From assembly GCA_015664885.1 (NCBI GenBank), contig DQPL01000100.1, positions 62,001 to 126,000 on the forward strand: a DNA stretch of 64,000 bases. The letters run 5' to 3'. Origin of the DNA: Gemmatimonadota bacterium. Lineage in GTDB: Bacteria > Gemmatimonadota > Gemmatimonadetes > Longimicrobiales > Gaopeijiaceae. Positions 1,648 to 38,522 of this stretch are shown piece after piece. The position numbers and the translations under genes were made by a program. Each line of letters begins with the position of its first letter. Position 1 is the first letter of the stretch. The notes under the pieces are model-generated. The model was not told the origin of the DNA. It searched no databases and was given only the letters and a program-made list of their open reading frames with translations.

Positions 1648-1660
1648 CCCGGCGCAACCG

Positions 1661-2494: not shown

Positions 2495-2629
2495 GGTCCC
2501 ACCTCCACACGTGTCCTAGCTGTCCCTAACAGTGCACCGTCTCCGCCCAGGCCGAAGGAGTGACCTCCGTACAAACATACGCGCTGGCTCGTGTTCGGTG
2601 ACGACGCAGCGTCCCCGCCGGCACCATGC

Positions 2630-2664
2630 AAAAACCGCCCCCTGGCGCGAAGGCCAGGGGGCGG
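2630..2664 (-). terminator. Rho-independent terminator of the susC-susD operon
   Basis: A perfect 12-bp inverted repeat (2635-2646 with 2653-2664, arm CCGCCCCCTGGC, 6-nt loop) is followed on the minus strand by five T residues. It lies 24 bp past the susD stop codon, which is where the end of a leftward susC-susD transcript is expected. Confidence 0.88.
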
Positions 2665-2687
2665 CATGCCCTGTTACCGCCAGTCGA

Positions 2688-4049
2688 CTACGACGTGAAG
2701 CACTTCGACGTGCTGTCGATGTTTTCGTTGACCTGGCACTCGTCATCGGAGATCGGGAAGCACGAAGCGCGGCGTGCAACCGTCGCAAAGTACACCACGC
2801 CGCCACCATCCAGATGCGGGTGGTTCCACCGGTGCAAGTCCCAAAGCCTCCGCCCTTCCAGCCAGTTCGTCAGGTGCCGCTCACGGTCGAGAATATCCCA
2901 ACCGGTCATCGACGTCGGGTGTGCCCCGCCGCCGTCACCACCTGTAATCGAACCGATCGTCGTCGCGACGAGCGCGCCGAGACCGAAGAACGCACGGACG
3001 TCGTTGATCTTCGCCATGGCGCCCACCAGGTCAGCGTTGAGCAGCGCGTTCTCAGCCTCGAGAAGACGCATGTCCGTACCTTTCACCACAGGAATGTCAT
3101 CGTCCTTGGTGGGGTACTTTTCCTGACGGTAGTGAATCGTCTGACCGTCGGCGCCGTTCCCTGACGGGCAGCCGCTGGATGCGGCACCGCAATCGGTCCA
3201 CGGAGTACGCGGGTCGCCTGCGCCGTACGTACCGGCGAGCGTTCCCCATGCCGAGATCTCGTGACGGCCATGCGTCTCCGCCCAGATCTGGCTCTCCTCA
3301 CGACCGGAATTGGACGAATACTCCGCGCCATACACGAAGCTCGTCGGCACCTGCGCCGCCTCCGTCATCGCGTTGGCCCACTGCCCGAGGCCGACGTACG
3401 CTCCGGCCATCGCACCATGCGCGGCCGTTACGATGTCCGACGCTCCGGAAGACGAGCCGTGCGACACCGCCTGCTGCAACGCGGGGATGGCCCGTTGGAA
3501 CGCGGCCGTCCTCGGAAGCGCTACGCCCTCGTCGATCTCCCCGCCCGGCCCTGGAAAATCTGCCGAGTACGGGTTGCTGAAGACGACCTCGCAGAAGGCC
3601 TCACCGAACCAACGGTTGGCGAGACCCGCGAACAGGTACGCACGTGCCGTCAGCTTGTTGCCTGAAAAGGTGAACCCTTCGATGTCAGCCATCCGCTGCA
3701 GGCCACCCTCGGCCACCCAGCGCGCACGCTGGACGTCCGCCCAGCGACCGTTCGAGTCTTCCGAATCGAACAGACCCCGACGGTACCGTCCCGTCGAGAA
3801 GTAACTGCCCGAGCCGACGATCTCGTCAGACAGGATCGCACTCGTGAATGACATGTTGTCATAACCGACGGAGAAGTCGGCGGACATCCCGGTCACCAGG
3901 GCGTTGATGCCCTTCAAGGTATTCAGGTCCGCATCGAGAATCCGACCGGGATTCTTGACGTTGAACAGATCGTCGCTACAGCCGGTCATCCCGAACGTGG
4001 CCACGAGGGCCACGACGGGGAGCCAGCGGATCTTCATCAGTGATCTCAT
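2688..4049 (-). CDS. SusD/RagB-family outer-membrane lipoprotein
   Basis: 453-residue SusD-like substrate-binding lipoprotein, the surface lid partner of the SusC transporter encoded just upstream (20 nt apart, same strand). A type II signal peptide ends at a lipobox (FGMTGC) near residue 24, followed by the typical LFNVKNPGRILDADLNTLKGI start of mature SusD proteins. Helical TPR-like segments fill the middle, and the C-terminal WDILDRERHLTNWLEGRRLWDLHRW stretch is characteristic of the family. An AAGGA-type ribosome site precedes the ATG at 4049; a second ATG at 4037 is possible. Substrate cannot be deduced: no polysaccharide lyase or glycosidase cluster is nearby, and the surrounding genes favour peptides or other organic nitrogen compounds (inference). 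Confidence 0.88.
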   Translation of the reverse strand: MRSLMKIRWLPVVALVATFGMTGCSDDLFNVKNPGRILDADLNTLKGINALVTGMSADFSVGYDNMSFTSAILSDEIVGSGSYFSTGRYRRGLFDSEDSNGRWADVQRARWVAEGGLQRMADIEGFTFSGNKLTARAYLFAGLANRWFGEAFCEVVFSNPYSADFPGPGGEIDEGVALPRTAAFQRAIPALQQAVSHGSSSGASDIVTAAHGAMAGAYVGLGQWANAMTEAAQVPTSFVYGAEYSSNSGREESQIWAETHGRHEISAWGTLAGTYGAGDPRTPWTDCGAASSGCPSGNGADGQTIHYRQEKYPTKDDDIPVVKGTDMRLLEAENALLNADLVGAMAKINDVRAFFGLGALVATTIGSITGGDGGGAHPTSMTGWDILDRERHLTNWLEGRRLWDLHRWNHPHLDGGGVVYFATVARRASCFPISDDECQVNENIDSTSKCFTS

Positions 4050-4069
4050 GATGTGTTTTCCTTATGGCT

Positions 4070-7000
4070 CTAGAAGTCGATTTTGACGGAGAACTGGAAG
4101 CTCCTGATCGGCGGTAGGTTGTAGTACTCCTGCCGGAACAGCACCTCAGCCGACCCGTCCTCGAACGCCTCCGGATCTACACCCTCGTAGTCCGTCCACG
4201 TGCCGAGATTGCGACCCTGCAAGCGAACCGTCGCCGCGCGAATGCTCGACGGCAGCCACGCTTCCGGCACACGGTAGCTCAGCGAAGCCGACCGGATCTT
4301 GAAGAAGTCCGCCCGCTGCGTCCACATGCCGTAGCGCGTAACGGAACGGTCGCACTGCGCCCGCTCACCAGCGGTCAACGTTTCGCGGTTGCCGGCTGCG
4401 ATCGCGTCCACCGTGCCGCGGCACATCGGCCACACTTCACGACGAGCGTTCTGGTACGCGGTACCGGAGGACAGCCAGTGTCCACCCATGCCCTCGCCCA
4501 GGATGTCGAACGTCAGGCGCTGCCTGAACGTGATCGACGTGTTGAGGCCGAAAGTCCGCGTCGGCGTCGTCGACCCGAGGCACTGCTCCATGTAGTCGGG
4601 AGCCCCAACCTCGTCCGGGTTCTGCACACGGTCGTGGCAGAACGCCGGAAGCGGGAACTTCACCATCTCGCCGACCGTGCAGCCCTGCCCGATGAAGCCA
4701 TTACCGTCGAAGTCGGCAGCGCCCGACAACGCCGCTGTGCACTCGATCGGAGCCCGCACGTAGTTCCGCCATCCGATGCTGATGCTCGTGAGTTGACCGA
4801 GCGTGTTGACCACCGAAGTGTTCGTCGACAGACGACCACCGATGTCCCACGAGAGGTTGTCCGACGCGACCACGACCGCGTTGATGTAGATCTCGTGGCC
4901 CTTGTTGGTGATCTCGCCCACGTTACTGAGCTGGCGGCCCACGAAGCCGGCCGAAGGCAGCTGAGTGACGTTGACCAGCGCGTCGGAGGTGGTCTGGTCG
5001 TAGTAGGTGTACTCGAACGTGACTCTGTCGTTCAGCGTCGAACCCTCGAAACCGAACTCGTACTCGAGCGTGCGCTCGGGACCGAGATCAGGTTCTCCGA
5101 GGTTATCCGGTGTAACGGCGGGCTGCCCGTTGTCACCAGCAACTGAGCGCCATGTCCGCGCAGCGTCGAACAGGCCCGGAGCTTTTCCGGACTCGCCGAC
5201 CGCAGCGCGAAGCTTCAGCGTACCGAAGTTCTCGGGGAAGAAGCCTTCGTCGGAGATCATGTAGGCCGCCGAAGCCTTCGGGTACGGCTCGAGTCCGAAG
5301 TCCGAACCGAACGCCGAGTGACCGTCGATGCGCAGGCCAGCCGTCAAGAACAGCCTGTCGCCCAGGCCGATCTGCTCCTGAAGGAAGAATCCGCCGGTGG
5401 TCACTGTGGCGTTGTACTCACTGAAAATCTCCGTGATCGCGCCGGAGGTCAGAACCTTGTCACCCGGGCCGGCGAAGTCCTCACCGTTGCCGTTGATGCC
5501 CGAGCTGAAGTCGTTGTAGAGCTGACCACCCCACGAGAACGACGAGGCCATGCCCATAAGGTCGGCCTGCCAGGTGCCCGCGTAATCCAGCGTCAGCTTG
5601 CGGAACGTGCGGTCGTCGACTTCACGCGTCCCGAGTTGCTTATAGAAGAAGCCCCACGGCCGGGTTTCCCGGTAGGTGTTGCGGGTCCAGTCGATCCCGG
5701 TGTTCAGGCGATGGCTCATGCCGTTGCCGGGATTGTACAGAATGTTCAGACCCGTAACGAAGTGGTCGTTCAGGTTGTTGAGCTCCATGACGAGCGTCTT
5801 GCCGTCCTCGTCGTTCGTATAATCCGAACCGCCACGGAACACGTTCAACAGCAGACCCTCGGCGTTGTTGCCGTCGGGCAGCCAGTCGATGTTCTTGTGG
5901 GAGTAGAACGAGTTGAAGCGGATGTCGAGCTCGTCACTCGGCGAGAACGAGAAGTTGCCGCGTAGGCTGTGGTCAGCCTGGCCCTGGGCGGGGTTGGTGA
6001 AGCCGCCGGCCTCGCCACATGCCTTGAGGCCTTCCTCGTTCAGGGAGCACGCATTCGGGTTCATGACACCGCGCTCGTCACCCCAGGACGCCGACATGAA
6101 GTAGTTCATGCGCTCGGCACCACCACGTACCGAGAGGTTGTAGCGCTGCTTGTAGCCGTCCTTGAACCAGGAGCCGTTCTCGGGGCAGGACGGGTCGGCC
6201 GGGAACATCGAGTCTCCACCGCCCTCGGTGTAGTTACAGTTGTTCAGCCCGAGACCCGTGGGGTTCACATCTGCGTCGGGACCGATGTGGCCGATCGTGT
6301 TCATACCCTGATCGATGCTCAGGCTCCACGCCGCTGCGCCGGCGACGCCACGCTTGGTGAAGATCTGAATCACACCACCCGCGGCCTCCGTGCCATAAAG
6401 CGTCGTGGCTGCGGCGCCCTTGATGACTTCGATACGCTCGATGTCGTTCGGGTTGATGTCGTCGAACGGATTCGACTGCTGGTTGGCCTCGTCCGAGTGG
6501 ATGAGCCCCGTTGCGCGCATGCGCACGCCGTCGATGTAGACGAGCGGCGAGTTGCCCTGCGAGATCGAGTTGTTACCCCGCAGCTTGATCGTGCTGCCGG
6601 CGCCGATCATGCCGCCGTTTTGCAGCACGGTCGCACCTGTGGTGCGACCCTGTAGAATATCGGCGACATTCGACACCGGAAGCGCTTCGATCTGGGACTC
6701 GTTGATCTGCGTGATCGAGTTACCGATCTCGCGGCGCCTCGCGGACCCCGCGGTCCCGGTCACGACGACACCTTCCAGGCTGATCGCCTCCGAGCGGAGT
6801 CGTGCGTCAGAGGTAGCCGTCTGGCCGGCTGCGACCGTGACTTCAATCGTCTCACTGCCATAACCGATGTACTGGAACTGCACTGAATGCGTACCTACCG
6901 GCACGTTCAGCAGCAGGAACCGGCCAACGTTGTTGGCCAGCGCACCGATGTTCAGCGACGGGATGCTAACCTGGGCGCCAGCGATCGGCTGCCCGTTGGT

Positions 7001-7138
7001 GCCGTCCCGCACCGAACCCGTCACGGTGCCAGTCTGCGCTTGGGCCGGAGCCCAGCCGACCATCACCGCAAACGCCGCGACGGTCAGAGTGCGCAATGTC
7101 CTGCGGAGGATCCCTTTGCAAACAACGCTTCGGGACAT
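4070..7138 (-). CDS. SusC/RagA-family TonB-linked outer-membrane transporter
   Basis: 1022-residue TonB-dependent beta-barrel receptor. Order: signal peptide (1-34, ending in AQAQ), carboxypeptidase-regulatory-like domain (about 37-115, GTVTGSVRDGTNGQPIAGAQ), plug domain with the SusC signature (ILQGRTTGATVLQNGG, SPLVYIDGVRMR and IERIEVIKGAAATTLYGTEA at about 160-250), then a long TonB-dependent barrel ending with an aromatic C-terminus (SVKIDF). Size and layout are normal for SusC. A strong GAGGAGG ribosome site lies just upstream of the ATG. It is first in a two-gene leftward operon with susD, and the 274-bp region up to 7412 is the likely site of its promoter. It imports a ligand delivered by the SusD lid using TonB/ExbBD energy; the ligand is unknown. 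Confidence 0.93.
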   Translation of the reverse strand: MSRSVVCKGILRRTLRTLTVAAFAVMVGWAPAQAQTGTVTGSVRDGTNGQPIAGAQVSIPSLNIGALANNVGRFLLLNVPVGTHSVQFQYIGYGSETIEVTVAAGQTATSDARLRSEAISLEGVVVTGTAGSARRREIGNSITQINESQIEALPVSNVADILQGRTTGATVLQNGGMIGAGSTIKLRGNNSISQGNSPLVYIDGVRMRATGLIHSDEANQQSNPFDDINPNDIERIEVIKGAAATTLYGTEAAGGVIQIFTKRGVAGAAAWSLSIDQGMNTIGHIGPDADVNPTGLGLNNCNYTEGGGDSMFPADPSCPENGSWFKDGYKQRYNLSVRGGAERMNYFMSASWGDERGVMNPNACSLNEEGLKACGEAGGFTNPAQGQADHSLRGNFSFSPSDELDIRFNSFYSHKNIDWLPDGNNAEGLLLNVFRGGSDYTNDEDGKTLVMELNNLNDHFVTGLNILYNPGNGMSHRLNTGIDWTRNTYRETRPWGFFYKQLGTREVDDRTFRKLTLDYAGTWQADLMGMASSFSWGGQLYNDFSSGINGNGEDFAGPGDKVLTSGAITEIFSEYNATVTTGGFFLQEQIGLGDRLFLTAGLRIDGHSAFGSDFGLEPYPKASAAYMISDEGFFPENFGTLKLRAAVGESGKAPGLFDAARTWRSVAGDNGQPAVTPDNLGEPDLGPERTLEYEFGFEGSTLNDRVTFEYTYYDQTTSDALVNVTQLPSAGFVGRQLSNVGEITNKGHEIYINAVVVASDNLSWDIGGRLSTNTSVVNTLGQLTSISIGWRNYVRAPIECTAALSGAADFDGNGFIGQGCTVGEMVKFPLPAFCHDRVQNPDEVGAPDYMEQCLGSTTPTRTFGLNTSITFRQRLTFDILGEGMGGHWLSSGTAYQNARREVWPMCRGTVDAIAAGNRETLTAGERAQCDRSVTRYGMWTQRADFFKIRSASLSYRVPEAWLPSSIRAATVRLQGRNLGTWTDYEGVDPEAFEDGSAEVLFRQEYYNLPPIRSFQFSVKIDF

Positions 7139-7412
7139 GTTGCCTCCTCACCATAGAATGAATTTGGCCCGCCGCGGACCTCCGCAGCGAGCGGCTCCAA
7201 TAGAGCGACGTGAATCTAGGCCCGGGAAACGCTAAAACACAATGGTTTTCCAGGCCGATCCACCCCACGATATCGATACGGCTGGATCCAAAAAAGATTG
7301 CACCGCCCCCGTCCACTGAGACACAAGCTTGAAATATCGACGCAACACGCGCACTTTGCCGGACTTTTCGACATCTTAGCTGGCAAACTGACCCCAATCA
7401 GGACCGATCGTC

Positions 7413-25062: not shown

Positions 25063-25172
25063 CGAACGACACGTAGAGCGCCGGTTGCACCCCCCGCAAG
25101 ACGGCCAGTCCCTGGTTATCGTTAGGGCTGCATGCAACGCAGCCGGCCCGTGGGCGCGACAGATAAGATGTG

Positions 25173-27488
25173 ATGAACGATGAGACAGCGACTGTGACTT
25201 CTGTGGCCAACGCCGCCCGAAACGGCGACGAGTTGCGCCCACCGTACCGGGAGGCCGCACTCGCTGGCTTGTTCGTATTCGCGCTCTACGCGCTGACTCT
25301 CGCGCGAACGACCGCGTTTTGGGACACCAGCGAGTACATCGCGACAGGGTATATCCTCGGCGTCCCACACCCCCCCGGCAATCCACTTTTCGTCGTGTTC
25401 GCGCGCGCGTGGTCCGTGCTTCTGGCTCCGCTGGGCATGTCGGTAGCCGTACGTATCAACCTGTTCAGCGCGCTCATGAGCGCCGGCGCGCACGCAATGT
25501 GGTTCCTCGTGGTGCACCACATCCTGCGCTTCTTCTCAGAGGATCGGCGCTTCCGAATCATCGGTGCATCTGCGGCTGTGCTCGTCAGCGCGACCGCCTT
25601 CACGGTGTGGAACCAATCCAACGTGAACGAGAAAGTGTACACCGTCTCACTGCTCACAATTGCTGTCCTGTCGTGGTTGGCGTTGCGGTGGCAGGAGCGG
25701 CTCGGGCGCGGCAAGGATGACAACCTGCTTGTCCTGATGGCCTTCATTCTGGCGCTGAGCGTCGGCAACCACCTCATGGCGTTCTTGGCGGCGCCAGCGA
25801 TCGGATTGTTCATACTCTTCGTGCGCCCCAAGGCGCTGCTCAATTGGCGCCTGTACGCCGCCGGCGTCGCGGTGATTGTGCTCGGGCTCTCGATCCATCT
25901 CTTTTTGCCGATTCGCGCCGGATTGGATCCCGTCATCAACGAGGCTGCTCCGACTTGTCCCAACATCGGTTCAGCGCTCGGCGCGGTCGTCACCTACGGG
26001 AAGGCGGGCTGCGCAGCGCTCGCTGAGGCGCTCAATCGTACTCAGTACGACAAACCAGGACTGTTGCCTCGCCTCGCGCCGCTGACCTCTCAGCTAGCCA
26101 ACTACCTACAGTACTTCGACTGGCAGTGGGCGCGCTCGCTCGACGGTAACTCGACCGTCTTCGCGAACTTGCGCCTTCCCTTCACGATGCTCTTCGTCGG
26201 CCTCGGGATGTGGGGTGCGATCGAGCACGCGCGCCGTGACCGCGCGAGCTTCGTGTTCATCGCCACGCTCTTCGCGACGCTGTCATTCGCGCTGTTGTTC
26301 TACCTCAATTTCAAGTACGGCTACTCGATGCAGGCGCCGGTCCAGGATCGCTCCCTGCACGAAGTGCGGGAACGTGACTACTTCTTCATCGTGAGCTTCT
26401 CGGTCTGGGGGCTCTGGGCCGGCATCGGTATCGCAACCCTCTGGCGCGAATCGGCACGAGAGATGGGGGTCGGCCTCGCCAAAGCGAGCCCCATCTTGAG
26501 CCTCGCGTTGATCCCACTCGTGTTCAACTTCTCCTGGGCGAGCCGGGCAAACGACTACGCGGCGAGGGACTGGTCCCACAACCTGCTGATGAGCGTCGAG
26601 CCGTACGGGGTGCTCTTCACGAACGGGGACAACGACACCTTCCCGTTGTGGTACCTGCAGGAGGTCGAGGGCATTCGCCGAGACGTGACCGTGATCGTGA
26701 CGTCGTACCTCAACACCGAGTGGTACACGGGTCAACTAAAGAGACTCACCGCGCCCTGTCCCGACGGAGTCGATCCGTCTTCGGACTGGTCCCGCATCCA
26801 ATGCCAGCGACCGTACACAGCGGAGAATACCGCCGCCGTGTACGTGTCGGACCCCAGTGAGGCACAGGGCAAGATCCCGCTCGTGGTCGACAGGCCGATC
26901 CGAGCCCCGACCAAGTCGATCATGCCGCTGTCCGATGAGGACATCAGCCGCGTCGCCCGCGTGGTCGTACCGATCGAGAACGACAGCGAAATTAGGCTGG
27001 GCAACGTGGTCGCCACGCTACCGGGAGGCACGACGCTCCTGCCGTGGCAGCAATACGCCCTCACGCTGATCAACGAAGTCATCGACGAACGCCCGATCTA
27101 TTTCGCGTCGAGCGGCAACGCCGCGGCGGCGCTGGGCGTGAGCCGCTACCTAGTGCGCCAAGGGCTCGCGTTCCGGCTCCACAACGGGCCCCTCGATGAC
27201 CAAGCGCCTGAGGGGTTCATGCAGATGGATCGAACACCCTACTCCAACGTAATTGGTGCGTGGATGGACCTTCCGCGTACTCGTACACTGCTCGACGATG
27301 TCTTCATGCACCGCACAGGGATCCCGGACGATTGGGGCCATTGGCCCGACCTCGCCACCATCGGGATTCCGAACTACTACGCTTGGACCTACCTCGCGAT
27401 GGCACAGGCCGCGGTCCAGAACTCCGACGAAGAGGCGCTCGCGACCTACCAGGCTCGGGCGGAGGCCTGGACGGTACTGGGCAGCTAG
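25173..27488 (+). CDS. DUF2723-family polytopic membrane protein
   Basis: 771 residues. The N-terminal ~440 residues form about ten membrane helices in the GT-C glycosyltransferase-like layout of DUF2723 proteins: ARTTAFWDTSEYIATGYILG with the catalytic-type acidic pair, GVPHPPGNPLFV, and NQSNVNEKVYTVSL. The C-terminal ~330 residues are periplasmic, with LFTNGDNDTFPLWYLQEVEG and the DVTVIVTSYLNTEW block typical of the family. Relatives are proposed to be lipid-linked-sugar transferases acting at the cell surface; the reaction is not established. ATG 25173 follows an in-frame GTG one codon earlier; the ATG is preferred. Confidence 0.85.
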   Translation: MNDETATVTSVANAARNGDELRPPYREAALAGLFVFALYALTLARTTAFWDTSEYIATGYILGVPHPPGNPLFVVFARAWSVLLAPLGMSVAVRINLFSALMSAGAHAMWFLVVHHILRFFSEDRRFRIIGASAAVLVSATAFTVWNQSNVNEKVYTVSLLTIAVLSWLALRWQERLGRGKDDNLLVLMAFILALSVGNHLMAFLAAPAIGLFILFVRPKALLNWRLYAAGVAVIVLGLSIHLFLPIRAGLDPVINEAAPTCPNIGSALGAVVTYGKAGCAALAEALNRTQYDKPGLLPRLAPLTSQLANYLQYFDWQWARSLDGNSTVFANLRLPFTMLFVGLGMWGAIEHARRDRASFVFIATLFATLSFALLFYLNFKYGYSMQAPVQDRSLHEVRERDYFFIVSFSVWGLWAGIGIATLWRESAREMGVGLAKASPILSLALIPLVFNFSWASRANDYAARDWSHNLLMSVEPYGVLFTNGDNDTFPLWYLQEVEGIRRDVTVIVTSYLNTEWYTGQLKRLTAPCPDGVDPSSDWSRIQCQRPYTAENTAAVYVSDPSEAQGKIPLVVDRPIRAPTKSIMPLSDEDISRVARVVVPIENDSEIRLGNVVATLPGGTTLLPWQQYALTLINEVIDERPIYFASSGNAAAALGVSRYLVRQGLAFRLHNGPLDDQAPEGFMQMDRTPYSNVIGAWMDLPRTRTLLDDVFMHRTGIPDDWGHWPDLATIGIPNYYAWTYLAMAQAAVQNSDEEALATYQARAEAWTVLGS

Positions 27489-30411: not shown

Positions 30412-32946
30412 CTACGACGAGAGCTCGTTACGAAAGGTTGCAGTGCCACGGGCGGGCTTCGCAGGCGCCCTCAGCAGAGTCCTTCCGGGACCGGCCGCGG
30501 CCGGCCGCAAAGCCGGTCCCACGCCCGATGCCTCGTCTCGAACCTCGAGTATAGAATCGAACAACTCGGGGCGTGCGTCTACCGCCTCGCCACCGCTGAA
30601 CAGGATGACGCGGGGGATCTCGCTCAGCAGCTCTTTGGTGAGCACGAGCGTCCGAATACGGGCCTCGAGGTCGAGTCGGTCGAAGGGCTCGGCAAGCACG
30701 AGGGAAGCCATCAATTTCCCGTTCGCCGCCACCAGCGAAGCCGCTGCGAGTCGCACCGCGATGCGAGCCGTCGCTCGATCTTCCTCCGAAACTAGAGCCA
30801 GCACAGAGCGGTCTCCGTTCAGGACCGCCCGGCCCGCCACCATCGACACCGTCAGAATCCGGCCGCCAGAGATTCGGCAAAGAAACCTCGAAGAGCGGTC
30901 GAGCAGCATGTCAGTGGCCCTTACCGACCGTGCTGAGCGTACCCGTCGCAGCGCATCTACAACCGCGCTCAGCGCGCCGCGAGCCTGAGTGGGCGGTACG
31001 GAAACGACCTCTCTCTCAGAAAGCTCAGAGAGGCGTGCGCGCAGCAGCTCGGCTCCCTCGGAGCCGGCCTCGAGCGCCGCATGGAAGCGAAGAGATTCTC
31101 CTTCGAGCTCCTGCAAATGCGACGGCTTGAGTTCGAGCTGCTCCCAGCGGCTCTTCCACCAGCTCCCGTCCTGGACGATGGACTCCCAGTCTTCGTTCAG
31201 CTCTGCCAGCACCTCTTGGTAGTGACTCTCGAGCACGCGACCGCACGTGGGACACGGCGCGTCCGGTCCAGCCGCCTCCAATTTCTTGAGGCGGGCCCGG
31301 ACCTCGCGTGCGCGGTCCCGATAGGCGTTGAGAGTGGTCTCCGCGTCCTGGCGTTCACGCAACCAACCCATGGTCGCGACTTCGAGATCTCCGTCGACCT
31401 CCACTACATCGGCCCTTAGCCCACGTAGGTCTCTTTCCGCGGCTCGGAACTCCGCCGCCACCTGTTCCAAGTGGACGCGGACCGCGCCGCGCCCGCTGCG
31501 CTCAACGAGCCTCACCGGTGCCGCTGATGGCACCGGCTCGACGGCCGCGGTCTCACCAGCTCTCAACAGCGCCGCATCCACAATGGCGAGGCCCCGGCTC
31601 GCCGCGACTGCTTCCGTGGCGAGCGAGATGGTCTCGTCGAGGGTATCGGCGCCCTGCCCGCTCCAAAGCCGGCGAAGGGGTCCGGGAGGCCCATCACCAC
31701 CTACCTGCACGAGCAATGCCTCGACGGCCTGCCGCGCGTGGCCTGCCCCTCCGATCACTGCCGTCAGCCCCTTGGGGAGGGAAGTACTGACCCGGCCGAC
31801 CCCCGGCACGTCTCCGTCCAGGGAGTCGAGAAGTCCGATGGGCTCACGCTCCAACGTGCCCACGAGATCGTCCGGAACGAGCTCTATGATCACTTTCTGC
31901 GTGGTCTCGGTCAGCAGGCCATCCCGCTCGAGCTCGCCTTCCAGCGCGTCGCGCAGAAGCCCGGGTGCATCGACCGGAAGCCAGGCCGCCGGGGGCACGC
32001 GCGGCTCCCTGCCGACCTCAACGGCCAGGTGTAGTGCGCGGCGCCTCAACCCCGTGAGCTCGTCTCCTTGCAAGGCCAACAGGTCTTCGGGGGATGCTCC
32101 TTCCAGCCTCAAACGCACGATCTTGCCGTCGATACCACCGGGGACTTCCGCCACGACCTCCCGCACACGACGCCGCAGTCGGTCGGCGTTGCCTGAAACG
32201 ACCTTGATGGGGGCCAGCGCGACTACGGGCCGGCCGGGAATGGGATGGAAGACGACTTCGTCCCGCTCCAGATCGACGGTTAGGAATCCCTTCTCGTCCG
32301 CGGCTTCGTCCCATGGGTCGAGAGCGACGCGCTCCAGCGATCCGGGGTATCGCGCGTTGGCAACCACGTTGCTACGTCGGTGCTCACCTCCCAGCGCGAT
32401 GTAGTCCCACTCGTCGGGATCGACATGCACGCCCCGCTCGCCGGCAGGGTCCGTAGATCCGTGAATCACGAGTAGGTTCCAACGCATCTTAGGGTCGGAT
32501 TCTGGCAGCGCGGCAGGGTGTCGCACGGTAGCCCGGTAGGGGACCAGGCAAGCATGGAGGTCGAGGCGCTCCATGAGGATGGATCGCGTCAGGCCTGTTG
32601 CCGCTTCGACGTTGGGAAAGGTGTCGAGCACCGCGAGCGCACCCGGGTCAGCGGGTCGGCGCGGCGTGTCCCTCGGACCCGCGACCATGAGCACCGGAGC
32701 CTCCGGCAGCGAAGAGCGAAGCGACTCGAGGCCTCGTGCGAGGGCGACGACGGCACCCGCCGGCGGGTCGGGACGGTCGAAGACGTCTCCAGCTACGACG
32801 ACGACATCAGGTGCGATGCGAACGAGCTCCTGCACCGCTCGCTCGAATGCAGCGGCGACATCGCGTTCACGCAGGTTCGCGCCCCGCTCTACGCGACCGT
32901 ACGCGCGAAACCCCAAATGGAGGTCGGAGAGGTGCGCGACGATCAC
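30412..32946 (-). CDS. SbcD/Mre11-SbcC/Rad50-like single-chain fusion with degenerate active sites
   Basis: 844 residues. Residues 1-240 have the SbcD/Mre11 metallophosphoesterase fold: SDLHLG (D8, H10), AGDVFD (D54), VIHG (H162), then the SbcD-like RYPGSLERV and KGFLTVDL strands. The nuclease site is eroded: motif III is GPRD (90-93) instead of GNHD, and motif V GGEH (186-189) instead of GHxH. Residues 240-390 resemble SbcD capping segments. Residues 390-844 look like a shortened SbcC/Rad50: a loop GGAGHARQ (399-406) where Walker A belongs, coiled-coil arms (490-560 and 575-680), an intact zinc hook C565-P-T-C568, a signature-like SEEDRATARIAVRLA (720-734) and Walker-B-like LAEPFDRLD (751-759) with Asp replaced by Ala. 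So it should still dimerise through zinc but probably neither cuts DNA nor hydrolyses ATP normally. It starts GTG 32946, overlapping the upstream stop (GTGA). Confidence 0.75.
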   Translation of the reverse strand: MIVAHLSDLHLGFRAYGRVERGANLRERDVAAAFERAVQELVRIAPDVVVVAGDVFDRPDPPAGAVVALARGLESLRSSLPEAPVLMVAGPRDTPRRPADPGALAVLDTFPNVEAATGLTRSILMERLDLHACLVPYRATVRHPAALPESDPKMRWNLLVIHGSTDPAGERGVHVDPDEWDYIALGGEHRRSNVVANARYPGSLERVALDPWDEAADEKGFLTVDLERDEVVFHPIPGRPVVALAPIKVVSGNADRLRRRVREVVAEVPGGIDGKIVRLRLEGASPEDLLALQGDELTGLRRRALHLAVEVGREPRVPPAAWLPVDAPGLLRDALEGELERDGLLTETTQKVIIELVPDDLVGTLEREPIGLLDSLDGDVPGVGRVSTSLPKGLTAVIGGAGHARQAVEALLVQVGGDGPPGPLRRLWSGQGADTLDETISLATEAVAASRGLAIVDAALLRAGETAAVEPVPSAAPVRLVERSGRGAVRVHLEQVAAEFRAAERDLRGLRADVVEVDGDLEVATMGWLRERQDAETTLNAYRDRAREVRARLKKLEAAGPDAPCPTCGRVLESHYQEVLAELNEDWESIVQDGSWWKSRWEQLELKPSHLQELEGESLRFHAALEAGSEGAELLRARLSELSEREVVSVPPTQARGALSAVVDALRRVRSARSVRATDMLLDRSSRFLCRISGGRILTVSMVAGRAVLNGDRSVLALVSEEDRATARIAVRLAAASLVAANGKLMASLVLAEPFDRLDLEARIRTLVLTKELLSEIPRVILFSGGEAVDARPELFDSILEVRDEASGVGPALRPAAAGPGRTLLRAPAKPARGTATFRNELSS

Positions 32947-34241
32947 GTGGCGGCGACGCCTCCCCCCAGGGCTCGGAATCCCTCGATGAGATCGGTTGGT
33001 GGCAGGGCCGCTTGGCGTCCCGCTACGAGCAGAACCTCATCCTCGTCGCCCACGCACGGGCGAGTGAGCGCGACCATCGACCAACCGTCGACCGCCTCGG
33101 TGGCAGGGTCGGAGTGGGGGCCCCAGACCAACACTCCCCTCGCGGAGACCCGCTGCCTCAGCGCTGCTTTCGCCCGAACGGACAGTCCTCCCGCGCCGCC
33201 CAAGGACTCGAGCGCCGCACCGTCCACCACGACCAGGTCGTAGCTCCCGGAAAGTCCTTCGATGAGATCGTCGAGGTTGCCTACTGCGACGAAAGAGCGC
33301 TCGGTGCTACCCACCTCCAACCCAGTCTCGAAGTGGTCTCTCCCGAGCTCCACAACATCCCCCAGTCGCTCCAGCACGTGGACTGATCCGGTCGGGTGTT
33401 CTCTCATGACCATGCGAGGCAGAGGTGACGCGCCGCCACCAACCACGAGTACGCGCCAAGATGCTTCTAGCGGAGGCATGAACCTGCGACCCACCGCGAC
33501 GTCCCACGGAATCACCGCGCTCACGTCCGAGAGTCCGATCGCTCGCCTCACGTGTCCAGCTTCGAGCAACACGCGCGACGCTAGGCCATCTTCCGAAAGC
33601 CGCCGGTCCTCCACTCGTACCGGAAGGGCCGTCGCCGCGCGGACCGCCTTCACTTCGATGTGGGGGCGAGCGCCCAGCACGACCCCATACATCATGCCGC
33701 CCAACGAGAGCAGCGCGAGGCATCCGATGAGCAGAAACGAAGGCACCGGCGATCTAGGAAGCATGAGCCCGGTGACAGCGAAACCCATCGCCGCGCCTAC
33801 CGCGGCCGCGGCGCCCGGGCCCGCCCTGGCACCCCTGCCATCGGTCAACGAGGCAGTGCTCATGCCGCCGAGCACGGTCCCGCACGTGTACAACGGCAAT
33901 GCAGCCATGATGGCGAGGCCGAATCCCTGACCGATGGCGGTATCACCGAGCTCGCCAAGCGCACTCCACGACGTGGCGTACGAAGCTGCCGCGAGGAACG
34001 AGGCCAGGCAGAGGATCCAGCGGAGGCGAATGCGGCTCACGAGACGCGGACCGGGACCGGGCGCACTCCACAGGCCGATCGCGAGCGCCGCCGCTTCCAC
34101 CACCAAGACGGTGCTGAGCGACCGCATGAGGCCGGTGCCAGCATACAACAGCACGCCGATGGCGATCTCCGCCGCAGTCGCACACGCGACTCCCACGAGC
34201 AGAGCGGGCAGCCATTCGGCTCGGCGGCGCAAGCTACTCAA
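32943..34241 (-). CDS. Membrane protein with spermidine-synthase-like C-terminal domain
   Basis: 432 residues from TTG 34241, chosen because it overlaps the upstream stop as TTGA and is preceded by GGGAGGGTGG; the open frame upstream only repeats the flavin-reductase antisense. Residues 1-205 hold about six membrane helices (WLPALLVGVACATAAEIAIG first, SFLLIGCLALLSLGGMMYG last). Residues 255-430 form a Rossmann methyltransferase fold of the spermidine-synthase type: WRVLVVGGGASPLPRMVM, VHVLERLGDVVELGRDHF, and YDLVVVDGAALESLG. Fused transporter/spermidine-synthase-like proteins are widespread, and many lack polyamine-binding residues; I cannot confirm polyamine synthesis. It is translationally coupled on both sides, to flavin reductase and to the SbcDC-like fusion. 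Confidence 0.75.
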   Translation of the reverse strand: MSSLRRRAEWLPALLVGVACATAAEIAIGVLLYAGTGLMRSLSTVLVVEAAALAIGLWSAPGPGPRLVSRIRLRWILCLASFLAAASYATSWSALGELGDTAIGQGFGLAIMAALPLYTCGTVLGGMSTASLTDGRGARAGPGAAAAVGAAMGFAVTGLMLPRSPVPSFLLIGCLALLSLGGMMYGVVLGARPHIEVKAVRAATALPVRVEDRRLSEDGLASRVLLEAGHVRRAIGLSDVSAVIPWDVAVGRRFMPPLEASWRVLVVGGGASPLPRMVMREHPTGSVHVLERLGDVVELGRDHFETGLEVGSTERSFVAVGNLDDLIEGLSGSYDLVVVDGAALESLGGAGGLSVRAKAALRQRVSARGVLVWGPHSDPATEAVDGWSMVALTRPCVGDEDEVLLVAGRQAALPPTDLIEGFRALGGGVAAT

Positions 34242-34723
34242 GTCACCACCCTCCCGTACGCTCCGGCGAAGAAGAGCAGTGCTCCACGGTCCGAGCAACC
34301 GGATGCGATCACCCGGCCCAGCACGATGGAGTGGTCCCCTCCCGGCATCACTCCGTTGGTCTCGCATTCCAACCAGGCCGCGGCGCCCTCGAGAACCGGG
34401 CTCCCGTCCGATGCGCCGCGCCAGGCAACGTCATCGAAACGTGTCTCCGGTGGCTCCAATGCGAATCGCTTGGCGATGTCGGCCTGATCCTCGGCCAACA
34501 CACTGACCGCGAACGTCTGTGCGGTAGTCAGCTTGTCGTGCGAGGCTGCTGCTCTGTCGATACAGACCAGGATGAGCGGAGGGTCGAGCGACACGGAAGT
34601 GAACGAATTCACCGTAACGCCCCAAACCGCGGACCCGTGCGCGCGCGCGCAAACCACTGCGACGCCCGTGGGGAATCGGCCCATGACCTCCCTGAACTGA
34701 AGCGAATCCAGTTGGTTCATCAT
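34238..34723 (-). CDS. Flavin reductase-like FMN-binding protein
   Basis: 161 residues from the ATG pair at 34723/34720 (MMNQLDSLQFREVMGRF); the open frame extends 15 codons further without coding character. The flavin-reductase domain signatures FPTGVAVVCA, GVTVNSFTSVSLDPPLILVCID, FAVSVLAEDQADIAKRFA and a late GGDHSIVLGRVIA are clear. These split-barrel proteins use NAD(P)H to reduce FMN/FAD for a partner monooxygenase. No monooxygenase is adjacent, so the physiological partner is unknown. It is first gene of the coupled run leading to the spermidine-synthase-like protein and the SbcDC fusion. Confidence 0.88.
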   Translation of the reverse strand: MMNQLDSLQFREVMGRFPTGVAVVCARAHGSAVWGVTVNSFTSVSLDPPLILVCIDRAAASHDKLTTAQTFAVSVLAEDQADIAKRFALEPPETRFDDVAWRGASDGSPVLEGAAAWLECETNGVMPGGDHSIVLGRVIASGCSDRGALLFFAGAYGRVVT

Positions 34724-34844: not shown

Positions 34845-35855
34845 ATGCGTAGGAAATCCCTAGCGATTGCGGTGATCTTAACCGTGGCCTCGGGCTGCGA
34901 CAACGTTGGTTGGGGCGGGGTCGACGTGAACTTGAAGCCCCCTCGCACCAAGGCCGAGCTGGCAGCGGAGACTCCGGGTCCTGCTGCCTTCGCGGCAGAG
35001 GAATCGGAGGCTCTGCCCGAGCTCCCGAACGGACCCATTCTTCTTGCGGGCAGGCGTAGCGGCTCCGAAGCAACCCTGACTGTGGTGGGCGAGATACAGG
35101 GCGATGCAATCGGCGCATTCGTGAGCGATTCCGAGGTCCGGGGATTCCGCGACCGTTTCACCGCCGAGCTGCTCGCACCCGGCTCCGAGTGGGTGCTCTT
35201 TGCACAGGGCGTTAGAGTCGGCCGCTTGACCGCCACATCGGCAGGCCTCAATGAGGAGTATTGCGTACCACGACCGACCATTTCCGGGGTGGTCGAATTG
35301 GTGCCGAGCGCCATCGGCGTCGAGTTGCTGATGGCTCTGCCTGCGCAAGCGGCGTCCGCACGCGCCTACAACGCGTATCGGGTCCACCGGCACAACTACG
35401 ACCAGCGGGTCGCCTCCCTGACCCTCGCTGACGAGGCGATTCCCCGGCTGGGCGCCGCGTGGCCCCCCGACGGAACCCTCTCGATACGTGCCGATATCCA
35501 GGCGTTCCAGATGGTGGGCGCGCCCCGAGAGGCAATCGCGGCAACCTTTTTGTATCGCGACCAGTTCGGAGCCTCCGCCGACAGCGCTGGCGCATACTCG
35601 CTTTTCGTGATGGGAAATGCGTCGGCAGAGGAGTACCAGCGCGCCTACACGTGGTACCGTCCGGTCGATAGTGAGGGCAAGGGCGCACCGCGCTATTTCG
35701 ATCATCTGGACTGGGACGGTGACGGCACCGAAGAGGTTCTGCTGGAGGTCTTCGGGTCCGAGCGACGCTGGTTCGCGGGACTAGCCCAGCGGAGCGGAAC
35801 CTGGGTTCGTACATTTGAGGACTCCTGCCTGCGATCCGAAGCCGCGGGCGGCTGA
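34845..35855 (+). CDS. Unknown lipoprotein coupled to the BtuFCD-type transporter
   Basis: 336 residues with a type II signal peptide (MRRKSLAIAVILTVASGC, lipobox TVASGC), so it is lipid-anchored. The mature part has no recognised domain: a Pro/Glu-rich linker (25-65), several beta strands (ATLTVVGEIQGDAIGAFV, VSGVVELVPSAIGVELLMA), and near the end HLDWDGDGTEEVLLEVFG, reminiscent of an FG-GAP/EF-hand-like calcium loop. Its stop overlaps the substrate-binding-protein ATG by one base (TGATG), so it is translationally coupled to the BtuF-like gene and probably works with that importer. Function otherwise unknown. Confidence 0.65.
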   Translation: MRRKSLAIAVILTVASGCDNVGWGGVDVNLKPPRTKAELAAETPGPAAFAAEESEALPELPNGPILLAGRRSGSEATLTVVGEIQGDAIGAFVSDSEVRGFRDRFTAELLAPGSEWVLFAQGVRVGRLTATSAGLNEEYCVPRPTISGVVELVPSAIGVELLMALPAQAASARAYNAYRVHRHNYDQRVASLTLADEAIPRLGAAWPPDGTLSIRADIQAFQMVGAPREAIAATFLYRDQFGASADSAGAYSLFVMGNASAEEYQRAYTWYRPVDSEGKGAPRYFDHLDWDGDGTEEVLLEVFGSERRWFAGLAQRSGTWVRTFEDSCLRSEAAGG

Positions 35856-36748
35856 TGCCGCGCTGCGCGTCGAGCACTTTTCTTCGTCGGACGCTGGCGG
35901 TGGTCAGCTTCGTCACCGCCGCGTGCGCAGGCGAGACTCCGGCCGACGAACACCCTGAGCAGGCCCTTCCTGAAGGCATCAGCGTCGTGGACGCGTCAGG
36001 GTCGCAGCGATTCTTCGCGACTCCCGCCAGGCGTGTGATTTCACTGGTGCCGTCCGCCACCCAGACGCTGCGGGCCCTGAGGACCGACTCCCTGCTGGTC
36101 GGGCGCACCGATTTCGACGTGCAGGACTGGTTGGCGCACCTCCCGTCCGTAGGTGGTGGCCTGCAGCCCAACCTCGAGGAGATCGTGGCGCTGAGTCCCG
36201 ATCTGGTCATCCGTTTCCACGGCGAGCAAGACTCGCGCACACCCGCGCGGCTCGACGATCTGGGTATCATGCACATCGCTGTCCGCCCGGACCGCCTCCA
36301 AGACTTATACGCTGGTGCGATTCTCTTGGGTCGCGTAACCGGTGCCGACTCTGCCGCCGACTCGCTGGTCCGTGCGCTCGAGGCCGGCCTCGCCGAGTTG
36401 TCGCAACGGGTCGAGCAGCTCCCGCGCCTGCGCGCGGTGTACGTGCTTGGCGGCACGCCGCCATGGGTAGCGGGTCCGGACACCTACATCGACGAAATCA
36501 TCCGACTGGTGGGCGGAGACAACGCCTTCCAGGATCTCGGGGCGCTGTATTCCGCGGTGAGCCCCGAGGAACTGCGCGCGAGGGAGATCGATGTCGTCTT
36601 GGTGAGCGATGCGTCACAGTTCGATGCGACACTCACGCCGCAGGCGCGCATCGTCGAGATCGGTGACGCGCTCGAGATCCCGGGTCCGCATGTGGTCGAC
36701 GCCGCGTGGCGCGTTGCTGAGTTGCTGCACGGCACTTCCTTACGATGA
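35855..36748 (+). CDS. Periplasmic substrate-binding protein, BtuF-like (corrinoid/iron family)
   Basis: 297 residues with lipobox (FVTAAC) near residue 22. Class III substrate-binding protein of the BtuF/FepB/FhuD superfamily: RVISLVPSATQTLRALRTDSLLVGRTDF at about 48-75, PNLEEIVALSPDLVIRF near 108, and a C-terminal YIDEIIRLVGGDNAFQDLGALYSAVSPEEL. The RVISLxPSxT opening with a D in the next segment is especially BtuF-like, so vitamin B12 or another corrinoid is likeliest; siderophores are possible. It is coupled at 5' to the unknown lipoprotein and at 3' (overlap of 4 bp) to the permease. Confidence 0.85.
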   Translation: MPRCASSTFLRRTLAVVSFVTAACAGETPADEHPEQALPEGISVVDASGSQRFFATPARRVISLVPSATQTLRALRTDSLLVGRTDFDVQDWLAHLPSVGGGLQPNLEEIVALSPDLVIRFHGEQDSRTPARLDDLGIMHIAVRPDRLQDLYAGAILLGRVTGADSAADSLVRALEAGLAELSQRVEQLPRLRAVYVLGGTPPWVAGPDTYIDEIIRLVGGDNAFQDLGALYSAVSPEELRAREIDVVLVSDASQFDATLTPQARIVEIGDALEIPGPHVVDAAWRVAELLHGTSLR

Positions 36749-37737
36749 ACCGGCTCACCCTGGCGACACTCCTCGGAGTGACGCTGACGATCAGCGTCCT
36801 GGCCGGCGTGCGCTTCGGTTCGGTGCCGCTGACCACCTCTCAGGTGTTCGCGGCCCTAACGGCAGGAGATGTCGAGATGCATCGCGACATCGTGCTGCAA
36901 CTTCGCCTCCCTCGGATACTGCTTGGGGTGCTCGTCGGGGGAGGTCTCGCGCTCGCCGGGGCCACCTTCCAGGCGCTGTTACGCAATCCGTTGGCGGAGC
37001 CATACATCCTCGGCATTTCCGGCGGTGCGTCGGTCGGTGCGGTCACGGTGCTCGCCTTGGGCTGGGCGGGACTGGGATCGTGGAGTCTTCCCTTGGCCGC
37101 CTTCGCCGGAGCGCTCCTTGCGATCGTGCTGGTATTCCGAGTGGCCACCGCCACGGGGCAAGCGATGGACGTGCGCGTCCTGTTGCTCGCAGGCGTTGTC
37201 GTGGCGGCGTTTTTCTCCGCCTGCATCGCCTTCATACTGTCGGTCTCCTCGGCGCGCACGGTTCAGAGCGTGGTTCTCTGGATCATGGGTAGCCTCGCCA
37301 ACGCGAGCTGGCAGAGCGTGCTGCTCGCGGCCGTTTACACCGTGCCAGCCGCGGTCGTCCTGATCGCGCTTGCTCGCCCGCTCAACCTCATGGCGATCGG
37401 CGAGGAGACCGCCCACTACCTGGGCGCCGATGTCGAAGGCGTGAAGCGCACCGCCCTCGTCATCGCCGCGCTGATCACCGCCGCCGGTGTCGCGGTGGCC
37501 GGCGTGATCGGCTTTGTAGGTCTCGTCGTGCCACACGCCATCCGCCTGCTCATCGGGTCCGATCACCGGGCGCTATTGCCGCTCTCCTTCTTGGGTGGCG
37601 CGGCGTTTCTTACGCTCGCGGACCTGATCGCGCGCTTGGCGCTGGCGCCGACCGAGATCCCGATCGGTGTGATCACCGCCTTCGTGGGCGTCCCGATCTT
37701 CCTCGTGCTGCTGCGCCGCAGTCTGGCTGGGACATGA
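36745..37737 (+). CDS. FecCD-family ABC permease (corrinoid/iron importer)
   Basis: 330 residues with about ten helices of the BtuC/FecCD type: RLPRILLGVLVGGGLALAGATFQALLRNPLAEPYILGISGGASVGAV, MDVRVLLLAGVVVAAFF, FVGLVVPHAIRLLIGSDHRALLPLS near 250-275. Acts as the homodimeric inner-membrane channel for the BtuF-like receptor. The ATG overlaps the end of the receptor gene by 4 bp (ATGA), and the gene overlaps the ATPase gene by 4 bp, so the whole importer is one transcription unit with the upstream lipoprotein. Confidence 0.92.
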   Translation: MNRLTLATLLGVTLTISVLAGVRFGSVPLTTSQVFAALTAGDVEMHRDIVLQLRLPRILLGVLVGGGLALAGATFQALLRNPLAEPYILGISGGASVGAVTVLALGWAGLGSWSLPLAAFAGALLAIVLVFRVATATGQAMDVRVLLLAGVVVAAFFSACIAFILSVSSARTVQSVVLWIMGSLANASWQSVLLAAVYTVPAAVVLIALARPLNLMAIGEETAHYLGADVEGVKRTALVIAALITAAGVAVAGVIGFVGLVVPHAIRLLIGSDHRALLPLSFLGGAAFLTLADLIARLALAPTEIPIGVITAFVGVPIFLVLLRRSLAGT

Positions 37738-38522
37738 GATTCGAGGCGCGTGACCTGGTGGTACGGTATCCCGGCGCGCAACGACCGGCGCTCGACGGCA
37801 TCTCCATGACGGTACCGGACGGATGCCTCTACGCGGTACTAGGGCCCAACGGATCGGGCAAGTCCACGCTCATGCGCTCGCTGATGGGGGCGCTCGAGCC
37901 GACCTCTGGCGGTAGCTATATCGACGACCGCGAGGTGGGCACGTGGGACCGTCGGGAGCTCGCGCGCGCGGTCGGAGCAGTCGCGCAGTCGGAGACTCTG
38001 GCCTTTCCGCTCACGGTTCGTGAGATGGTCGGCATGGGACGCTATCCTCACCTCGGGCCTCTCGCGGGGGAAGGCGACGCGGACCGGGAAGCCATTGCGA
38101 CGGCCCTAGCCGAGTGTGATGTGACGGAGTTCACCGCCCGAGACGTGACAACGCTCTCAGGCGGAGAGCGCCAACGCGTGCGCATCGCACGAGCCCTCGC
38201 ACAGCAGCCGCGAGCACTCGTGCTGGACGAACCGACCAATAGCCTCGACATCCGTCACGAGATGGCGATCCTGGAGTTGCTGCGCCGTTCGGCGGACGCG
38301 GGACTCACCGTCATCGTCGTTACGCACGGCCTCGATCTCGCAGCTCGGTTCGCCGACCGCATGTTGCTACTCTCGCAAGGTACGGTGGCCGCCGAGGGCA
38401 CACCCGCGGAGGTCGTGACAGAACAGACGCTAGCCGGCGTCTATTCGTGGCCGGTATCGGTCACGACCGATCCCGCGACGGGGACGCCGAGAGTCACACC
38501 CCTACGGGACGGACAGACCTAG
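37734..38522 (+). CDS. ABC transporter ATPase, BtuD/FecE type
   Basis: 262 residues. Walker A GPNGSGKST (38-46), Q-loop region VGAVAQSE, signature LSGGERQRVRIARAL (140-154), Walker B ALVLDEPTN (162-170), D-loop SLDIRHE and H-loop His in VVTHGLD. All catalytic residues are intact. It drives import through the FecCD permease upstream (4-bp overlap). It ends 5 bp from the convergent rsgA gene, so transcription from the two sides must meet here; no terminator hairpin is obvious in between. Confidence 0.93.
   Translation: MRFEARDLVVRYPGAQRPALDGISMTVPDGCLYAVLGPNGSGKSTLMRSLMGALEPTSGGSYIDDREVGTWDRRELARAVGAVAQSETLAFPLTVREMVGMGRYPHLGPLAGEGDADREAIATALAECDVTEFTARDVTTLSGGERQRVRIARALAQQPRALVLDEPTNSLDIRHEMAILELLRRSADAGLTVIVVTHGLDLAARFADRMLLLSQGTVAAEGTPAEVVTEQTLAGVYSWPVSVTTDPATGTPRVTPLRDGQT

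Follow-up and report, generated by a model that had tools for sequence, protein, structure and literature searches.

What does a protein built like the DNA-repair complex Mre11–Rad50 (SbcD–SbcC) do once the residues for nuclease and ATPase activity are gone? This question is raised by a stretch of 64,000 nucleotides from a Gemmatimonadota genome (assembly GCA_015664885.1, contig DQPL01000100.1, positions 62,001 to 126,000; hereafter, the window), in which a fused Mre11-like/Rad50-like protein of 844 amino acids (aa) with a GTG start (30412..32946, minus strand) forms a three-gene operon with a flavin reductase and a membrane protein. The genome assembly has a size of 3.96 Mb in 136 contigs and is 99% complete. 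An earlier note on this DNA took the gene for an SbcDC-like fusion with a repair-like role; we found that the identity as Mre11 plus Rad50 stands by predicted fold, whereas the idea of a working repair protein does not, because none of the 82 distinct members examined has kept the motifs of either catalytic half. For the same reason, an active SbcCD fusion is out. What the earlier note missed is that the fusion appears to be doubly dead, at the nuclease and the ATPase sites both.

Sequence libraries detected Mre11/SbcD at residues 3-290 of the fusion, including the Pfam calcineurin phosphoesterase domain, and only traces of Rad50. An AlphaFold2 (AF2) model based on 47 family rows has a mean pLDDT of 90.5. 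In this model, residues 1-314 fit Mre11 of M. jannaschii (4tug; VIA-align Z 27.6, rmsd 3.2, 285 aligned residues), and the structures 3av0 and 3tho carry the match on to residue 358-363. Residues 369-817 fit the ABC head of Rad50 (3qkt; Z 17.4, rmsd 3.6, 250 aligned residues), with the qualification that only residues 1-315 were covered by at least a fifth of the VIA-align rows and that the Rad50 rows stood at ranks 44 and 46. The model contains a calcineurin-type phosphoesterase fold with a capping domain, followed by an ABC-type head with a coiled-coil insertion. Because both halves match structurally, the Mre11–Rad50 architecture is present. The predicted domain order is nuclease and capping domains (aa 1-315, 32002..32946), linker helices, head N-lobe (aa 369-470, 31537..31842), a short coiled coil with the putative zinc-hook motif CPTC at its tip (aa 565-568, 31243..31254), and head C-lobe (aa 691-805, 30532..30876), all on the minus strand. 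By descent and fold, the protein appears to be of the Mre11–Rad50 kind and, as judged by its motifs, it fails the catalytic tests of that family.

The extent of the loss was assessed in two samples. The genome set comprised 98 genomes, namely 58 of family f1, the family with the dead fusion, and 40 outside it, including the sister families f2 and f3 and the further families f6 and f7. For the species scan, an alignment of 11 fusions was run against a single genome of each species; 431 pattern matches yielded 169 confirmed relatives, the best 80 of which correspond to 77 loci. For the motif census, 124 Mre11-domain rows were reduced to 97 distinct ones (82 dead, 12 intact, and three "semi" rows with partly changed motifs that were set apart: G077, G093, and G037p). 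Left out were G024 (a stop inside the gene), L151 (no Mre11 part), and all rows no longer than 250 residues (e.g., L144 and L172). Mre11 residues are numbered as in P. furiosus, the numbering in which passages of Yoshida, Claverie, and Ogata (2011, PMC3175470) give H173, H206, and H208.

The complete two-metal site of Mre11 (DxH, GDxxD, GNHD, H, and GHxH) is absent from the window protein. In the alignment, its phosphoesterase motif III reads GPRDTP (aa 90-95, 32662..32679, minus strand) in place of GNHDxP in the intact relatives, and its motif V reads GGEH (aa 186-189, 32380..32391, minus strand) in place of GHYH. Among the 82 dead Mre11 domains, neither Asn84 nor His85 is kept in any; the latter is replaced by Arg in 80 and by Ser in two. 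His206 is lost in 76 (kept in six) and His173 in 32 (kept in 50). The remaining positions are nearly invariant: Asp8 is kept in 81, His10 in 80, Asp49 in 80, and His208 in 79. All 12 intact relatives have the expected residue at all nine motif positions, and motif III was gone in all 39 f1 rows of the first motif comparison. We take Asp8, His10, Asp49, and His208 to form the first metal site, and Asp49, Asn84, His173, and His206 to be the ligands of the second metal. The dead domains also differ from the intact ones in the frequency of Lys or Arg at positions 92 (98 vs. 0%), 260 (99 vs. 17%), and 206 (100 vs. 58%) of the window protein.

The Rad50 half has lost its ATPase motifs as well. Walker A (GxxxxGK[ST]) was found in 0/82 dead rows, as searched in full stop-to-stop frames of which 79 include the Rad50 half, and in 11/11 intact rows with the Rad50 frame seen. 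In the window protein, the relic GGAGHARQ (aa 399-406, 31729..31752, minus strand), which was placed by inspecting the flanking alignment, stands for GPNGxGK[ST]. The C-lobe has no ABC signature SGGE, and its Walker B is changed to LAEPFDRLD (both places assigned by inspection). An xSGGE string occurs in 2/78 Rad50 parts (G000 and G001); by inspection, it lies at the H-loop place and is not the signature. The hook, by contrast, is retained: a CxxC motif is present in 78/78 Rad50 parts of at least 300 aa, with CPTC in 56. Four dead rows in which the Rad50 part was too short (G049, L168, L184, and L190) were left out of this count.

In f2, f3, and other families of the class, most of the relatives examined encode Mre11 and Rad50 by two genes, and the motifs are canonical (in Mre11, GNHD and GHYH; in Rad50, GPNGxGK[ST], CPTC, SGGE, and LDExFGSLD). 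The exceptions are G077 and G093, in which Mre11 motif III is changed and Rad50 is intact. The former, an f3 locus (L077, 5002-8575) with GDRD and GHHP in Mre11, may represent an independent partial loss on the nuclease side. In the species scan, three of the 77 loci from the best 80 relatives are of the intact type (L195-L197) and 74 are dead by readable motifs; one of these 74 is a Rad50 half alone, and a few have single motifs that the pattern did not read.

Despite these losses, the fusion is under strong purifying selection. The dN/dS ratio (NG86 method, with some pairs near synonymous saturation) between the window fusion and that of a genus mate is 0.088, and by part it is 0.062 for Mre11, 0.058 for the hook, 0.111 for the C-lobe, and 0.166 for the N-lobe. 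Both partner genes have higher values, 0.253 for the membrane gene and 0.200 for the flavin reductase, and seven other comparisons of fused proteins or split halves gave 0.036-0.262. Conservation within the Rad50 half is also inverted: among 52 dead fusions, the hook core has 60.7% identity, compared with 27.5% for the N-lobe and 36.3% for the C-lobe, so that the hook is the best-conserved part of the dead Rad50 half; in 10 intact Rad50s, the corresponding values are 48.2%, 65.5%, and 72.1%. Identity in Mre11 is alike in both groups (56.2% in the 52 dead fusions and 53.9% in 12 intact relatives).

The catalytic losses trace to one lineage. In a tree inferred without the nine motif columns, all 82 dead rows fall on one side of a branch with an SH-aLRT value of 97, although this is a quick tree with some long rows. 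Among the 80 dead rows that could be classified, 53 are fused and 27 are split, with at least six changes of state on the tree. Within f1, 47 of the 58 genomes match the fusion at E under 1e-30, and 39 of these 47 are in the motif census. The best 80 of the 169 relatives (77 loci) all carry titles of Gemmatimonadota/Gemmatimonadetes, Gemmatimonadales, Gemmatimonadaceae, Gemmatimonas, or Longimicrobiales. A scan of viral contigs gave 53 stretches that fit the pattern and no relative; collections of plasmid and phage records were not searched.

Canonical Rad50 (best E under 1e-60) was found in 1/58 f1 genomes vs. 23/40 genomes outside. The lone f1 copy (L089) adjoins an integrase-like gene. This locus (718-7400) of genome G037, which carries the dead fusion as well, contains a second Mre11–Rad50 pair with a P-loop in its Rad50; the pair adjoins a tyrosine-recombinase-like gene and is probably on a mobile element. 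A YhaN-like ATPase (E under 1e-50) is found in 34/58 f1 genomes vs. 0/40 outside. In the window genome, a pair with a P-loop, which we take to be YhaO/YhaN-like, is located at L087 (C115:41.1-45.1 kb, 3147-7087), some 48 kb away from the fusion. Apart from the fusion, the YhaO-like gene is the only SbcD-like gene in this genome, which also has two PDDEXK_1 frames that we read as AddB/RecB-type candidates. With this pair and these frames, the cell plausibly manages without a catalytic Mre11–Rad50.

Some f2 relatives, as well as those of f6 and f7, have a HerA-like gene next to intact Mre11–Rad50; the window genome has no match to this gene. At L084, L085, L195-L197, L207, and L082, this HerA-like ATPase gene lies beside Mre11 and Rad50 in what resembles an archaeal-style resection cluster. 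In L084 and L085, it has no Pfam match, and its NCBIfam match to HerA is at E 8e-4, far under the cut-off. The gene upstream of it in L084 and L085 is NurA-like by inspection only: there was no Pfam match for either copy and no NCBIfam match for the L084 copy, and the Pfam search for NurA gave a match in 1/98 genomes.

On balance, we read the fusion, with a probability of about 0.55, as a non-catalytic Mre11–Rad50 scaffold joined by its zinc hook and serving as a structural tether. In this scenario, a normal two-gene Mre11–Rad50 complex would have lost both activities and retained its architecture. Two molecules may pair through a zinc ion shared at the hook, the Mre11 halves may dimerize, and the assembly could form an ATP-independent, non-cutting bridge on DNA or on another phosphate-bearing partner. 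The single-metal site, together with the Arg in place of His85, may have become a pocket that grips phosphate or DNA ends without cutting them. The membrane protein, which would be co-expressed with the fusion by coupling (usually along with the flavin reductase), may serve as its anchor or regulator. An AddAB/RecB-type nuclease and the YhaO/YhaN-like pair, for both of which the window genome has candidates, presumably took on cutting and resection.

Several points weigh against this tether. The protein is dispensable, as 10 of the 58 f1 genomes have no match to the fusion and one has a weak, different match; furthermore, the gene is broken by a stop in G024. The replacement story is incomplete because 16 of the 47 fusion carriers have no strong YhaN match (31 have one), though some genomes are incomplete. 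DNA binding, dimerization, and zinc coordination are inferred from fold and motif. Rad50 heads bind DNA when ATP-engaged, and DNA binding may be lost too because the head cannot take ATP in the usual way. The Rad50 part is also no more positive than in the intact relatives, with a net charge of -3.1 per 100 aa in both groups. Part of the clade retains the second acidic residue of Walker B (xxEPFDRLD in the closer relatives of the window protein), and 22 of the 78 hooks are not CPTC (CPLC, CGRC, CSVC, and others).

The operon bears on what the fusion may work with. In the window, the first gene encodes a flavin reductase of 161 aa (34238..34723, minus strand; FMN reductase-like, HpaC/FerA/HsaB type), with a match to Pfam Flavin_Reduct at residues 14-158 (E 1.5e-40) and 143 bits to the NCBIfam FerA-like family, under its equivalog cut-off of 260. 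Its stop overlaps the TTG start of the membrane gene (32943..34241, minus strand, 432 aa) by the four bases TTGA (34238..34241), and the stop of the membrane gene overlaps the start of the fusion by the four bases GTGA (32943..32946). All three are open frames ending in stops, and both overlaps are where the earlier note had placed them, at 34241 and 32946. Its naming of the first two products was equally sound, in the case of the membrane protein by fold. The AF2 model of this protein (pLDDT 91.7) has six long N-terminal helices (aa 11-190, 33672..34211, minus strand), presumably embedded in the membrane, followed by a divergent spermidine-synthase-like fold (aa 193-408, 33018..33665, minus strand) that Foldseek matches to spermidine synthases (4yuv, E 1.4e-9). 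By sequence, the match to SpeE is weak (E 0.001) and below the family cut-offs (PRK00811, 18.3 bits vs. 260; speE, 12.7 vs. 249.55). In some lineages, the relatives consist of the helical part alone (about 200 residues) and lack the synthase domain. In the f2 relative P0008 (L079, 8804-10510), the membrane domain and a short-chain dehydrogenase share one frame, the latter replacing the spermidine-synthase domain. A scan for consensus promoters and terminators gave nothing above chance.

Overlaps of four bases between stop and start are ordinary in operons and also occur in the neighboring transporter genes (at 36745 and 37734), so a single one is not remarkable. The pattern across genomes tells more than any single genome could. 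Upstream DNA sufficed for counting at 76 of the 82 distinct dead loci, the other six having too little, and a partner was counted when it lay upstream on the same strand within 3.5 kb with a profile match at E under 1e-8. By these criteria, at least one of the two partners is present at 69/76 dead loci (both in 48, the membrane gene alone in 15, the flavin reductase alone in six), and seven have neither; two of the 15 loci with the membrane gene only (L061 and L075) have a weaker flavin reductase fragment. Among the 63 junctions between the membrane gene and Mre11, 42 have a four-base overlap and seven a one-base overlap. The earlier note had proposed a survey of the neighborhoods of fusion homologs, and unrelated contexts did not turn up: besides the 69 linked dead loci, a single strand of the f2 locus L207 carries, in this order, the flavin reductase, the membrane gene, the HerA-like gene, Mre11, and Rad50, the last two of them intact. 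From this gene order, the neighborhood seems older than the loss of catalysis. In f3, six of seven flanked loci (L077, L078, L081, L086, L088, and L215, but not L083) have the gene pair ahead of Mre11–Rad50 on the same strand and separated from it by a gap, which in several of them holds a small antisense gene (cluster 16). This gene, located between the membrane gene and Mre11 (L077, 8718-9038; L088, 8390-8764; L086, 5410-5787), encodes a lysine-rich protein, the L077 copy of which has no Pfam match above the cut-off.

This conservation could also arise if the two partner genes have a job of their own, e.g., alongside the divergent FecCD/BtuF-like transporter, while the fusion merely happens to lie downstream in a conserved stretch of chromosome. 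We hold this explanation, which concerns the operon partners and is compatible with the tether reading, to be a tentative but real possibility, at somewhat less than even odds. The synteny does extend beyond the operon, to the transporter, RsgA (its cluster at 32 of the 51 loci clustered), and a TMEM260-like gene (29 of 51). Moreover, seven genomes have the flavin reductase and the membrane gene without Mre11–Rad50 (L198 and L202 in f1; L203-L206 and L214 in f2/f3), which, together with this wider synteny, argues against a tight functional link. Against mere proximity stands the four-base coupling, which is seen with fused and split forms alike, whereas Mre11 in f3 forms a unit of its own that is not coupled. 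In L207, the pair is followed on one strand by HerA-like, Mre11, and Rad50 genes, and at six loci that lack a match to the membrane gene, 3-150 bases separate the end of the flavin reductase from the fusion. In view of the same seven genomes, the wider synteny, and the lack of the synthase domain in some lineages, membrane-associated genome maintenance, toward which the earlier note pointed, is a possible role of the operon but no more than that.

Two of the flanking units deserve mention in their own right. The divergent operon at 34845-38522 of the window encodes a protein of unknown function, a periplasmic binding protein, a FecCD permease, and an ABC ATPase, and it is syntenic in the family; it presumably serves the uptake of iron, cobalamin, or siderophores and may be a partner of the flavin reductase. 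Downstream of the three-gene operon, a TMEM260-like (protein O-mannosyltransferase-like) membrane protein is encoded at 25170-27488.

Another explanation gives the fusion no role on DNA at all and makes it a zinc-hook scaffold, or a zinc or redox sensor, of a membrane complex that also comprises its two operon partners. The frequent coupling (42/63 junctions), the partner genes at 69/76 loci, and the hook as the best-conserved part of the Rad50 half fit this idea. So does a precedent for a Rad50-type hook that regulates a non-repair enzyme, as passages on RloC describe inhibition by zinc and activation by hook mutations (PMC2610378). We nevertheless regard it as unlikely, considering that Mre11 is conserved as well as in the intact relatives (56 vs. 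54% identity), which would be odd if DNA had been abandoned, and that 13/76 loci are without the membrane gene and 22/76 without a nearby flavin reductase match.

The fusion could instead be a residual nuclease, i.e., a one-metal phosphoesterase that acts on DNA or a nucleotide without ATP, as Asp8, His10, Asp49, and His208 are each kept in 79-81 of the 82 dead rows. The catalytic His85, however, is Arg in 80/82, and Asn84 and His206 are lost in 82 and 76, respectively. We equate H84 of E. coli SbcD with the His85 position. The H84Q mutant of SbcD is described as nuclease-deficient (PMC6265447), and this adds to our view that residual cutting is rather improbable.

We are slightly more doubtful still of a family-wide, ATP-free, SMC-like chromosome tether that would use the membrane protein of the operon as its anchor and be gated through the redox state of the flavin or the hook thiols. 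A decaying pseudogene of an unneeded repair complex is scarcely credible: the loss of both activities, the interrupted copy G024/L144, and the absence from 11/58 f1 genomes would suit it, but it is contradicted by the selection test (dN/dS 0.036-0.262 in eight fused or half comparisons), besides full-length frames in dozens of genomes, a confident fold, and the fixation of Arg at one site in 80/82.

Other candidates were rejected. A phage origin is not supported, as the scan of viral contigs, which did not extend to plasmid and phage record collections, gave no relative and the clade shares its synteny with ordinary genes of the chromosome. For a Lamassu-type defense system (LmuB with a partner gene), there was a weak match to the coil only (E 8.6e-5), and none of 10 flanking proteins matched Lmu at E 0.001. 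We attribute the PADLOC matches to mad3/mad8 and others on the transporter ATPase to general ABC similarity.

In the usual view, Mre11–Rad50 is a nuclease driven by ATP, and a role as a scaffold is hard to part from catalysis. Here, evolution has apparently parted the two, with the catalytic residues gone and the hook and folds under selection in dozens of genomes. The clade may thus offer a natural experiment on the functions that the zinc hook and the Mre11 fold have alone, and an example of a repair enzyme turned pseudoenzyme in bacteria. The complementary spread of the YhaO/YhaN-like pair hints at what may have taken over the enzymatic work, and naming by similarity as "SbcD" or "exonuclease" is misleading for the dead clade.

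Among known systems, the YhaO/YhaN-like pair is alike in combining a phosphoesterase with a coiled-coil ATPase, but its YhaN-like protein has the P-loop GPNEAGKST and is encoded by a separate gene. The fused MFS/spermidine synthase family NF037959 covers an f3 homolog of the membrane protein (P0007, 110 bits, cut-off 40), whereas the membrane protein of the window has no match to it at E 1 and some relatives have no synthase domain. RloC likewise has a zinc hook on a Rad50-like protein as a switch outside classical repair; unlike the fusion, it carries the motifs of an ABC ATPase together with a tRNase domain, and passages of its description mention no Mre11 domain (PMC2610378). A catalytically dead Mre11–Rad50 fusion appears in no title or abstract opening among the top-ranked papers found in the open-licence PMC literature, subscription papers and preprints lying outside this scope. 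Mre11/Rad50 fusions as such were described in mimivirus, five bacteria (including Clostridium kluyveri and Deferribacter), some eukaryotes, and a phage (Yoshida, Claverie, and Ogata 2011, PMC3175470). These fusions are described as sporadic, with several on viruses or plasmids; mimivirus R555 retains the ATP-binding motifs and most metal residues, and in two fusions one P-loop segment was unobserved (PMC3175470). They share with the Gemmatimonadota fusion a single polypeptide with Mre11 at the N-terminus and Rad50 at the C-terminus, but the latter differs from them in being chromosomal and syntenic, in forming one clade, and in having lost both activities with no motif retention of the R555 kind (PMC3175470). 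With Mre11–Rad50/SbcD–SbcC itself, the fusion shares the domain order and the fold of both halves, and intact orthologs are found in the sister families. From this complex, the fusion clade is set apart by the lack of motifs III and V, Walker A, and the ABC signature, by a far shorter coiled coil, by halves that are often fused, and by an operon with a flavin reductase and a membrane protein.

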